Below the pieces are notes generated by a model. It saw only the letters and a list, made by a program, of their open reading frames with translations, did no database searches and was not told the DNA's origin. The position numbers were made by a program, and so were the translations under genes. This document shows, in pieces, positions 2,423-11,494 of a stretch of DNA of 64,000 bases. Source of the stretch: Gammaproteobacteria bacterium (GTDB taxonomy: Bacteria > Pseudomonadota > Gammaproteobacteria > Steroidobacterales > Steroidobacteraceae); the NCBI GenBank assembly GCA_025359205.1, contig JANYHD010000001.1, forward strand, positions 1-64,000, read 5' to 3'. The stretch's first letter is position 1; each line of letters opens with the position of its first letter.

Positions 2423-3856
2423 TCACCAGGGCAGTGAATAAGTCTTCACGTTGGTGAACGATTTCATCGCCTCCTGCACCCCTTCCTTGATGCCGATGCC
2501 CGAATCCTTGATGCCGCCGAAGGGCGTCAGCTCGAGCCGGTAGCCGGGCACCTCGCGTACGTTGACGCTGCCGACGTTCAGCTCGGACACGAAGCGGGTG
2601 ATGTAGTCGAGCCGATTCGTGCAGACCCCGGAGGAGAGGCCATAGTCGGTCGAGTTCGCAATCCGGATGGCCTCGTCAATGGAGTCAAACCGGATCACCG
2701 GAGATACCGGGCCGAACGTCTCGGTCTTCACCACTTGCATGTCTGCGGTCACGCCGTCGAGCACGGTCGGCGAATACAGGGCGCCCTTGCGGATGTTGCC
2801 GTACAGCAGCCGGGCGCCGCGGCCCACGGCGTCATTGACCCGCTCTTCAAAATTACGGGCGGCGGCCTCGTCGATCACCGTGCCCATGTCGGTGCGCGAA
2901 TCCATCGGGTCGCCGTAGACGATGGCGCGGCTCTTCTCCACGAGCAGTTCGACGAAGCGATCGGCCACCGCGGCGTGGATCAGCATGCGCTTGACCGCAG
3001 TGCAGCGCTGTCCGGAGTTCTTGTAGGATCCGGCGACCGCGAGCGAAGCGGCTTCTTCGATATCGGCGTCTTCCATGACGATCAGCGGATCGTTGCCGCC
3101 GAGCTCGAGCACCTGGCGCTTGTAGACCGCCTTGGCGGCGATGTACTTGCCCACCGGCACGCCGCCCGTGAAGGTGATGAGATCCACATCGCGATGCGTC
3201 AGCAGTTCATCGGCGAATTCGCGCGGGTCGCCGGTCAGGACGCAGAACATTTCCGGGGGCAGCCCAGCCTCGAGCAGCAGGTCGGCGAGCAACAGCGCGG
3301 TCAGCGGTGTCTTCTCCGAGGGCTTGAGCACCATCCGGTTATTGGTCGCGATCGACGGCGCCACCTTGTGCGCGACCTGGTTCAACGGGTGGTTGAATGG
3401 CGTGATGGCTGCAATCACGCCTTGCAGCGGCTCGCGCTGCGTGTAGACGCGCCGGCGCTTGCCGTGGGCGGTGAGGTCGCAGGAGTAGATCTGGCCGTCG
3501 TCCTGGAGCGCCGCGTTGCCTGCGAACAGGAACACATCGCAGGCCCGTCCGACTTCGTAGACCGAGTCCTTCTTGCTGAGGCCGCTCTCCGCGGTGATCA
3601 GGTCGGAGATCGCAGCGGTCCGCGCGCGGATCAGCTCCGCGGCGCGATAGCAGATCTGGTAGCGATCGTAACGCGACAGTGGCGAGCGGAACGCGCGCGC
3701 CGCCGCGATCGCGCGGCGCACATGCTCGACGCTGGCCATGGGCGCCGTGCCGGCGAGCTTGCCGTCGTACGGGCTGTGGACCTCGCCGCTGCGCGGCGTG
3801 CGAATGCGCTCGGTGCCGATGCGCAGGCTGTCGAAAGCGGCCTCCTCAGGCGGCAC
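2423..3856 (-). CDS. phnY: phosphonoacetaldehyde dehydrogenase (ALDH family)
   Basis: NAD(P)-dependent aldehyde dehydrogenase of about 477 residues. It has the family glutamate in ELGGNDP (about residue 252) and the catalytic cysteine in [11 protein letters not shown] (about 285). Specificity is inferred from context: it is immediately downstream of phosphonoacetate hydrolase and divergent from 2-AEP transaminase, the PhnW-PhnY-PhnA set. It would oxidise phosphonoacetaldehyde to phosphonoacetate. The start is uncertain. GTG at 3856 overlaps phnA by 11 bp and fits relatives, in which a LRIG-like motif lies near the N-terminus. ATG at 3907 would give a 62-bp overlap. Neither has a strong ribosome-binding site. 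Sulfoacetaldehyde is a close analogue, so some activity on it is conceivable. Confidence 0.85.
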
Positions 3857-5069
3857 GATTGAGTACCCAGTCGAAGGCGTCGAAGTTTCGCCAGCGGCGG
3901 CCGGCATCGAGATCGGCGATGCGGCGGTTCATGACCAGCGGAACCCGCTGCTCTGACAGTCCACCGTGTGAGCGCAACGGCGCATCCAGGCCCGACAGGT
4001 CGTGGCGTGCCGCGGCGCTGCCGATCACGACGGAACGCTCGCCGGTGACGACCAGGTCGCCGATGCGGTCGGCCGGCAGCTCGAAGCGCGCCGCGGCCTC
4101 GGTTCGTGTCAGCACCAGTTCAATGCCGGCTAAGGCGCGGATGCGCGCGGCGATGGCAGCCTGGTCTGCTGCCGCCGGCAGATACACGGTGGCAAAGGAG
4201 CCGAGCGCACCGTGGTGCACGACATAGGGATCAGTGATGGGTAGGATCACGCGGGCACGGCCTGCGCCCAGCCACGCATCGAGCTGGTCCTGCAGGTAGA
4301 TGACATCCGGGCTCGCATCCAGGCGTGTCTTCGCGTTCATGCCGTGGTCGGCCGTCACGACGATAACGCAACCGAGATTGTCGAGCGTTCCCAGGTAGCC
4401 GTCCATCATGCGGTAGAAGTCATTGGCCGGGGCGGCGCCCGGCGCGTATTTGTGCTGAACGTAGTCGGTCGTCGACAGGTACATGACGTCGGGGCGGCGC
4501 GTTTCCATCAGGCGCACGCCGGCGGCGAACACGAACTCGGACAGTCCCGCGCTGTACACATCAGGCACCGGTCGGCCCACGAGTTCGATGACGCCCTCAA
4601 TCCCATGTTCTGCCAGCGTCGTCTGATCGGCCTTTTCGGCCGAGAAACACACGCCACGCATGTGGTGGCCAAGCAGCCGGCGCAGCTTGTCCTTGGCCGT
4701 GATCACCGCCACAGCGCAGCCAGCGTCCGCGAGTGCGGCGAGCAGGGAAGGGGCGCGCAGCCACTTGGGATCGTTCATCATGACTTCGACGTTGTTGGCA
4801 ACGTCGTAGAGATAATTGCCGCAGATGCCGTGCACCGACGGCGGTGCGCCGGTGATGATCGAAAGATTGTTGGGATTGGTGAACGTTGGCACGACCGAGT
4901 CGGCGATCACGGCCGTGCCATTGGCCAGCACCGATTTCATCCAGGGCATGTGCCCGTTGGCGACAGCCTGGGCAATGTAATCGGGCTCGCAACCGTCGAC
5001 GCACACGACCACCGATGGCTGCCTGGGCAGCCGATAGCCGCGTCCATTGACTTCGATCTCGCGCATCAT
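3846..5069 (-). CDS. phnA: phosphonoacetate hydrolase
   Basis: A 407-residue member of the alkaline phosphatase/nucleotide pyrophosphatase metallo-superfamily. The N-terminal metal site is [12 protein letters not shown]. The nucleophile region [13 protein letters not shown] carries the active-site Thr, [10 protein letters not shown] follows, and a distal metal site is in TADHGMN. The enzyme splits phosphonoacetate to acetate and phosphate, releasing phosphorus without C-P lyase. It heads the leftward phnA-phnY pair. A second Met directly follows the first (5066) and could be the true start. Confidence 0.93.
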
Positions 5070-5081
5070 GATCCCGCTGGC

Positions 5082-10726: not shown

Positions 10727-10738
10727 CGAACGCCAGGA

Positions 10739-11494
10739 TCAGAGCTGCGACAGAGCCCGCGCGCCGGTCAGCAAAGCCAGCGCCATCAGCAGGCGCAGCA
10801 CCCAGCGATTGGCGCTGCCGGGGTCAGCGCGTTTGAAGCGATGATTGCCCAGCCAGATGCCGGCCGCCAGCGGCGGCAGGAACAGTGCGGCGCGTATCAC
10901 CGTTGGCGTCGCGATGAGGCCGTTCCAGCCCTGCCAGGCCAGGCCGACCAGATCCGACAGGAAGAAGTAGGCGATGAGCGAGGCGCGGCCCACGTCGACT
11001 CCTGCTGGCGAACTGAAGAAAAAAAGGATCACAGGGGGACCGCCCATGCCGAAACCACCGTTGGCGAGACCCGAGGCGGTGCCGGTAGCAAGAGCCGCGC
11101 CAAGACCCGGCATGCGCTGCAGCCTGTAGCCACGGGCCAGCAACAGCGCTGAAACGAACACGAATACGGCCAGGCCCAGTGTCAGCGGAGCGGCCGGGGC
11201 GTGCGCCAGCGCGTAGACGCCGAACGGCGTGCCGATGAGCGCACCACAGAACAGCCCCAGCAGGGCGCGCCAGTGTATGAGGCGCCAGACACCGTGCAGC
11301 AAAGGCAGACCCGCCAGAATCTCGAGCATAAATATCGATGGCACTGCTGCGGCGGGCGGCAAGACCAGCGAAATGGCGGTGATGGACAGCAGTGAAAAAC
11401 CAAAGCCGCTGTAACCTCGAACCACGGCTGCCACGAATATGCACAACGCGGCGTACAGATACGTAATAGCCAGCGTCATCAAAGCAGAATCCAT
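10739..11494 (-). CDS. TauE/SafE-family sulfite (sulfonate) exporter
   Basis: An integral membrane protein of about 251 residues with 7-8 hydrophobic segments and the TauE/SafE (formerly DUF81) pattern: GYSGFGFSLL near the start, GALIGTPFGVYAL, and a second-half GTASGLANGGFGMGGPPVIL repeat. Family members export sulfite or sulfoacetate produced during taurine degradation. The stop lies 12 bp from the convergent permease stop, and the gene has its own promoter. I prefer the ATG at 11494; an in-frame ATG at 11527 adds eleven basic residues. Placement next to xsc supports a role in sulfite disposal. Confidence 0.85.
   Translation of the reverse strand: MDSALMTLAITYLYAALCIFVAAVVRGYSGFGFSLLSITAISLVLPPAAAVPSIFMLEILAGLPLLHGVWRLIHWRALLGLFCGALIGTPFGVYALAHAPAAPLTLGLAVFVFVSALLLARGYRLQRMPGLGAALATGTASGLANGGFGMGGPPVILFFFSSPAGVDVGRASLIAYFFLSDLVGLAWQGWNGLIATPTVIRAALFLPPLAAGIWLGNHRFKRADPGSANRWVLRLLMALALLTGARALSQL

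Follow-up and report, generated by a model that had tools for sequence, protein, structure and literature searches.

Direct adjacency of phnW and xsc in a merged 2-aminoethylphosphonate and taurine locus of the Steroidobacteraceae

The first 64,000 nucleotides of contig JANYHD010000001.1 (assembly GCA_025359205.1, a gammaproteobacterium of the Steroidobacteraceae), referred to below as the window, carry at 2423-11494 a merged form of two known catabolic pathways. One is the degradation of 2-aminoethylphosphonate (2-AEP) by PhnW, PhnY and PhnA; the other is the degradation of taurine via sulfoacetaldehyde acetyltransferase (Xsc). The gene of the 2-AEP-pyruvate transaminase, phnW, stands directly before xsc. 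This union is real and is repeated in a congener. The leading explanation for the supply of sulfoacetaldehyde is that PhnW also acts on taurine, to which, judging from the gene content and sequences compared here, we would give slightly less than an even chance. Genomes of the family are designated by G-numbers; G000 is that of the window, and G004, G013 and G014 are its congeners.

Organization of the locus

The sequence-only reading of the window had named the genes of this locus and placed phnW in a rightward unit with xsc, ackA and a permease gene, divergent from phnA-phnY. Coordinates and strands bear out both the gene set and its arrangement, and PhnY, PhnA, PhnW and Xsc all score above NCBIfam equivalog cut-offs:

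2423-3907, minus strand: phnY, phosphonoacetaldehyde dehydrogenase (equivalog TIGR03250, 831 bits against a cut-off of 636)
3846-5069, minus strand: phnA, phosphonoacetate hydrolase (equivalog TIGR02335, 595 bits against 408)
5086-5122, no strand assigned: conserved block in the gap between the divergent genes phnA and phnW, a putative operator, near-invariant in G000, G004 and G013, weaker in G014
5186-6289, plus strand: phnW, 2-AEP-pyruvate transaminase (TIGR02326, 490 bits against 401; also above the cut-off of equivalog NF010006)
6382-8157, plus strand: xsc, sulfoacetaldehyde acetyltransferase, 591 amino acids (equivalog TIGR03457, 898 bits against 676)
8154-9347, plus strand: ackA, acetate kinase (subfamily model TIGR00016, 334 bits against 293)
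9344-10726, plus strand: APC carrier resembling the gamma-aminobutyrate (GABA) permease, candidate importer of taurine and/or 2-AEP (PF00324)
10739-11494, minus strand: TauE/SafE-family permease, candidate sulfite exporter (PF01925, 76 bits against 33)
2283-2367, minus strand: tRNA-Leu beside phnY, in the place held by sorA in G004 and G013 (ARAGORN)
2-1604, plus strand: IS21-like element bordering the locus on the left, consisting of the C-terminal part of a transposase and IstB (PF22483, NF038214)

Two divergent units, phnA-phnY leftward and phnW-xsc-ackA-permease rightward, flank a gap of 116 bases, and the convergent TauE-type gene closes the locus. The stop codon of phnW is separated from the start of xsc by 92 nt. 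This start is placed at 6382, downstream of a GAGGAG motif, the mechanical open reading frame start at 6286 being too early. Further on, xsc overlaps ackA, and ackA the permease gene, by 4 nt each. PhnW, PhnA and PhnY, all equivalogs encoded in a single cluster, make up a PhnWAY pathway for 2-AEP. PhnW keeps the lysine of SGKCLEG and the arginine of FRVG found in the solved PhnW structures, residues that we take to be catalytic. Only one Xsc match in the genome exceeds the TIGR03457 cut-off, four others lying far below it. The best NCBIfam model for the permease is GABA permease TIGR01773, at 513 bits against a cut-off of 678; by this score the protein is a relative of GabP that falls outside the GabP family itself.

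Origin of the phnW-xsc junction

Of the 15 genomes of the genus included in the search, the same four, G000, G004, G013 and G014, have PhnW (threshold 1e-80) and Xsc (threshold 1e-130). The sequence-only reading had suggested a search of other genomes for the adjacency, and it recurs in one of these congeners: phnW directly precedes xsc in G000 and G004 (2 of the 15). In G004, phnY-phnA diverge from phnW-xsc-ackA-yeiH-permease, followed by the TauE-type gene. Because this order is repeated in an assembly of its own, an assembly artefact is an unlikely cause of the junction. The PhnY proteins of G004 and G013 are 93% and 90% identical to that of G000, and in both the TauE-type gene occupies the same position as in the window. 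The G004 copy (L108 3537-4294) spans two overlapping frames, which may reflect a frameshift or a sequencing error.

G013 shows a different junction. On its contig C87, phnA-phnY diverge from phnW-tauR-tpa-xsc, tpa being the gene of taurine-pyruvate transaminase (Tpa), and the contig breaks off within xsc; xsc-ackA-yeiH-permease and the TauE-type gene are found on a second contig. The two xsc ends overlap by 117 aligned bases at 92% identity and therefore represent strain variants or two copies. In G014, phnY-phnA-phnW lie on a contig that ends soon after phnW, while a more distant xsc (Xsc2, see below) and a gene of the omega-aminotransferase AptA type are on another. Most likely, G013 has kept the older order, and the junction of G000 and G004 arose by loss of tauR and tpa from it. 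Loss of tpa rather than its gain is favoured because tpa adjoins xsc in five other genomes. In trees of concatenated nucleotide sequences G000 groups with G004, with support of 98 for the phn genes and 99 for xsc-ackA-permease. The permease protein tree instead pairs G000 with G013 (99/96), as does, weakly, the PhnW tree (93/35); tpa may thus have been lost once or twice. Searches of the phnW-xsc spacers for leftover pieces of tauR-tpa gave nothing better than shuffled sequences (258 of 500 as good in G000, 56 of 500 in G004).

A sulfite dehydrogenase gene of the sorA type lies directly behind phnY in G004 and G013 (L108 13620-14834; L144 7086-8300), so that in these congeners a sulfite-handling gene is part of the phosphonate unit as well. 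The G004 product has molybdopterin oxidoreductase domains, its best solved relative being subunit A of sulfite:cytochrome c oxidoreductase, and the G013 copy is 82% identical to it.

Within the block at 5086-5122, positions 5109-5120 can be read as the inverted repeat ACAGT-TT-ACTGT; a repeat finder at a 7-base setting reports only CTGTCGG/CCGACAG nearby. Variants of a 15-mer from it, with 2-3 mismatches, precede phnW in G014, G160 and G163. None precedes phnW in the other scanned loci of the related genera g18 and g23, a chimera-like contig of G110 excepted, and the few 3-mismatch matches elsewhere look like chance. The conserved block suggests that xsc in G000 and G004 follows a phn-type control region. 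The G110 contig in question (C108, L148 7665-12706) has phnA-phnY copies on both sides of phnW. Since its right half resembles G013 contig C87, it is probably a chimera of the assembly whose halves meet within phnW.

What precedes xsc in the family

Xsc was found at 1e-130 in 42 of 217 family genomes, in 17 at 82-100% identity (Xsc1) and in 25 at 46-50% (Xsc2). Tpa, at a threshold of 1e-90, accompanies Xsc1 in 11 of the 17. Its gene stands directly before xsc in five loci and on G013 contig C87, and elsewhere in the remaining Tpa genomes. Three other Xsc1 genomes (G150, G158, G159) have the genes of taurine dehydrogenase, TauXY, directly before xsc, and one (G148) an AptA-type gene. The last two are G000 and G004, both with phnW in this place. 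One Xsc1 genome, G227, has a stop inside xsc.

The sequence-only reading had also stated that the window holds no Tpa and no taurine dehydrogenase. As far as tested, this extends to the whole genome (43 contigs totalling 2.98 Mb, completeness 97.4%). G013 Tpa has no match there at 1e-90, and none of the 12 class-III transaminases that pass the Pfam cut-off exceeds 33% identity to the Tpa of locus L008; at 97.4% completeness a missed piece with Tpa is possible. No close TauY was found in G000 (best match 33% identity over query residues 52-419) and no close TauR (best 33%). SorA was not found in the genome either, nor yeiH at its phnW-xsc locus. Close Tpa, TauY and TauR were likewise not found in G004.

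The genes downstream of phnW appear to be maintained. Between G000 and G004 the ratio of nonsynonymous to synonymous substitution rates (dN/dS) is 0.095 for xsc, 0.076 for phnW, 0.177 for ackA and 0.140 for the permease gene, at dS of 0.66-0.79, and values against G013 are similar. The low value for xsc indicates strong purifying selection, even though no tpa was found. In an alignment with 95 other Xsc proteins, 341 columns are conserved in 95% or more of these; G000 keeps the consensus residue at 338 of them and G004 at 335. Xsc is apparently maintained with its old specificity.

Relatives of the permease are encoded beside xsc without phn genes nearby (G223, for example), beside phnWAY, or beside both; two genomes with the phnWAY context, G125 and G072, have no Xsc match. 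In the permease tree no context forms a single clade, and the labels, whose assignment varies with the 6-kb reach used and with where contigs end, are clustered (5 of 500 shuffles as low for xsc only, 1 of 500 for both). These contexts fit a carrier that may take up taurine and 2-AEP alike.

Other unions of phnW and xsc

PhnW and Xsc occur together in 30 of the 217 family genomes against 10.5 expected (hypergeometric 5e-13, uncorrected for kinship). By match tables they lie within 20 kb on one contig in 17 of the 30; G013 and G110 add two when the contigs themselves are read.

In seven genomes of genus g18 (G060, G064, G066, G100, G111, G112, G116), the genes of Xsc2, of a permease (70-73% identity) and of PhnW are co-directional and lie within 2.5-3.6 kb, with ackA in between except in G060. 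This Xsc2-permease-(ackA)-phnW operon resembles the G000 locus in its phnW, xsc, permease family, usual ackA and single direction. It differs in that its Xsc is only 47-48% identical to that of G000 and that mostly an AptA-type transaminase gene lies divergent to xsc (6 of the 7); family-wide, AptA-type genes diverge from Xsc2 genes at 9 loci. In G064, G066 and G112 phnA-phnY follow phnW, while the G116 contig ends in phnA. In G060, G111 (both by model) and G100 (by similarity) phnX comes just before phnW. Behind two of the g18 operons (L150 14086-17998, L158 11934-16050) there are a glutamine-synthetase-like gene and an aldehyde dehydrogenase gene, joined by an iron alcohol dehydrogenase gene in L150 and by an enolase-superfamily gene in L158, which may belong to a further pathway.

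Genus g23 has phnW and xsc 7-18 kb apart on one contig in seven genomes. In G150 of this genus (L146, 2040-9232) a TonB-dependent receptor gene and two TPR-sulfotransferase genes lie between tauR and phnW. Several g23 loci (L146, L147, L151, L203, L205, L208) encode beside phnA an FAD oxidoreductase 27-30% identical to TauY, possibly an N-methyl-AEP oxidase of the PbfC/PbfD type. Such oxidoreductases were considered as taurine enzymes and judged unlikely, since PbfC and PbfD are reported to be inactive on taurine (PMC10590968).

Direct adjacency of phnW and xsc was not found outside the family in the samples searched. In a general contig collection, where at least L006 and L008 are family members and records near the G000 genome may be left out of the Xsc loci, PhnW is encoded in none of the best 80 of 584 confirmed Xsc loci (75 of the 80 include 1,200 bases or more ahead of xsc). 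In a sample of 369 genomes of the class, PhnW lies within 1.5 kb of Xsc in none of 21 loci besides that of the window (17 with at least 1,200 bases upstream). None of 247 matching plasmid records has a single place covering 80% of a joined PhnW and Xsc query. In a sample of the order (396), Xsc was found at 1e-200 in 17 genomes, all of the same family.

Proposed mechanism and its alternatives

Transamination of 2-AEP to phosphonoacetaldehyde is established for the PhnW family. In the proposed scheme, the APC permease would import both 2-AEP and taurine. PhnW would pass the amino group of 2-AEP to pyruvate, giving alanine and phosphonoacetaldehyde, and would also transaminate taurine to sulfoacetaldehyde. 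PhnY and PhnA would convert phosphonoacetaldehyde to acetate and phosphate. Xsc would convert sulfoacetaldehyde to acetyl phosphate and sulfite; AckA would then form acetate and ATP, and the TauE-type protein, by analogy with its family, would export the sulfite. Once tauR-tpa was lost, xsc would have come to follow the control region of phnW, and the operon would have been left with PhnW as its only transaminase. Taken as a whole, this explanation, a merged 2-AEP/taurine catabolic unit with PhnW serving both branches that arose by tauR-tpa loss, comes close to an even chance and just misses it. Its fullest form is put forward more tentatively, as somewhat short of even: PhnW as a bifunctional 2-AEP/taurine:pyruvate transaminase that has displaced Tpa, with a shared permease, control through the phnW operator and a gain of phosphorus, ATP and acetate.

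The idea that one transaminase feeds both branches was already part of the sequence-only reading. It has gained from the G004 adjacency, from the failure to find Tpa or a close TauY, from the position of phnW in the place of tpa, tauXY or an AptA-type gene, and from the purifying selection on xsc; it is weakened by the lack of a residue specific to the two PhnWs and by an AptA equivalog elsewhere in the genome.

Several points weigh against a PhnW active on taurine. G000 and G004 are congeners, and their adjacency may represent a single event, one without a counterpart outside the family in the samples described above. Aligned with 32 other PhnWs (34 in all), the two have no residue unique to them, and at columns more than 90% conserved the only residue unique to G000 is an Ile for Val; no adaptation to taurine is therefore visible. 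G004 is only 72% complete. In g18, the AptA-type gene divergent to xsc means that phnW is not the sole candidate there. The same holds in G000, where an AptA equivalog on contig C29 could make sulfoacetaldehyde, so that the pattern in 2 of 17 Xsc1 genomes is valid only for Tpa and linked enzymes. Finally, PhnW is described as narrow in the literature: the PhnWX and PhnWAY pathways process only 2-AEP, plus phosphonoacetate in the case of PhnWAY (PMC10574752), N-methyl AEP is not processed by PhnW (PMC10590968) and R-HAEP is inefficiently processed by PhnW-PhnX (PMC8154272).

This narrow specificity favours a model in which the locus is merged and co-regulated while PhnW is specific for 2-AEP, sulfoacetaldehyde coming from an unlinked transaminase, most likely the C29 AptA. 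That protein, the main rival source, scores 669 bits against an equivalog cut-off of 500 and is 54% identical to the one encoded directly before xsc in G148; the AptA-type genes divergent to Xsc2 point the same way. Its gene is, however, on a different contig from xsc, adjoins an aldehyde dehydrogenase gene and encodes a protein 92% identical to one in G013, a genome with Tpa. On account of this match and this neighbour it seems to be an omega-amino-acid enzyme of general function, not a replacement, and we regard the model as unlikely, though the strongest of the alternatives.

Routes to sulfoacetaldehyde from isethionate, sulfoacetate and other sulfonates are established, and an enzyme elsewhere in the genome might feed Xsc from one of these instead of taurine. 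The enzymes for isethionate and sulfoacetate were not searched for in G000; this includes isethionate dehydrogenase, which the sequence-only reading had reported missing from the window. On the other hand, the recognised makers of sulfoacetaldehyde encoded directly before Xsc1, namely Tpa, TauXY and the AptA type, all act on amines, and the permease resembles an amino-acid carrier, which makes such a source improbable. Slightly less probable still is that the taurine branch is a decaying relic, in which xsc, ackA and the permease gene linger by chance or in minor roles after tauR, tpa, yeiH and sorA have gone. The missing genes, the IS21-like element and tRNA at the border and the two-frame TauE-type gene of G004 would agree with decay; the intact xsc, ackA and permease genes and their low dN/dS, at dS of 0.66-0.77 for these three, argue otherwise. 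An action of Xsc on phosphonoacetaldehyde, whether in place of sulfoacetaldehyde or in addition to it, is suggested by the phnW adjacency and the likeness of the two aldehydes only. With its conserved columns nearly unchanged, and with PhnY-PhnA already there to dispose of phosphonoacetaldehyde, Xsc is very improbable as a phosphonate enzyme.

Relation to known systems

The phosphonate part of the locus has the same three enzymes, by equivalog models, as the PhnWAY pathway of the Sinorhizobium meliloti type. It differs in that phnW is split from phnA-phnY, divergent from them and at the head of a sulfonate operon, and in that no gene for a LysR regulator or an AEP ABC transporter is found among its neighbours (window 1-14904). 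With the Tpa-Xsc taurine pathway it shares Xsc, acetate kinase, a TauE-type exporter and a permease, and congener G013 even has tpa directly before xsc; in G000, by contrast, Tpa and TauR were not found and phnW occupies the place before xsc. Whereas phosphate acetyltransferase is the neighbour of xsc in S. meliloti and Paracoccus, G000 has acetate kinase instead.

S. meliloti, an alphaproteobacterium, offers a partial parallel. In record CP090105, as annotated, a taurine region (tauA, ABC genes, xsc, yeiH, pta) is followed by phnW-phnA-phnY and an AEP transporter, TauXY being read from entries for an NTF2-family protein and an FAD-binding oxidoreductase. The taurine and 2-AEP clusters are neighbours on the same strand of one replicon, with xsc and phnW 8.3 kb apart. 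Unlike the locus described here, the two clusters form distinct operons, and each has a deaminating enzyme and a transporter of its own. Searches of a library of PubMed Central (PMC) papers found none joining phnW with xsc, or 2-AEP with taurine through Xsc or sulfoacetaldehyde, and none combining sulfoacetaldehyde acetyltransferase, taurine dehydrogenase and acetate kinase.

Outside the locus, the window also encodes at 15663-18338 a DnaB replicative helicase with an apparent intein carrying a LAGLIDADG domain.

Significance

2-AEP and taurine are common, near-isosteric amines of the environment whose breakdown is usually treated separately, as we read it; almost none of the PMC papers searched names both routes. 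G000 and G004, set beside G013 with tpa still between phnW and xsc, form a before-and-after pair, from which follows a testable claim: that one transaminase links the catabolism of organic phosphorus and organic sulfur. If this is true, some taurine use would escape notice in metagenomes surveyed by tpa counts. Should PhnW prove specific after all, the repeated physical union of both pathways, which involves two Xsc lineages, several gene orders and a sorA-type gene behind phnY, still suggests that these bacteria meet and use the two compounds together.

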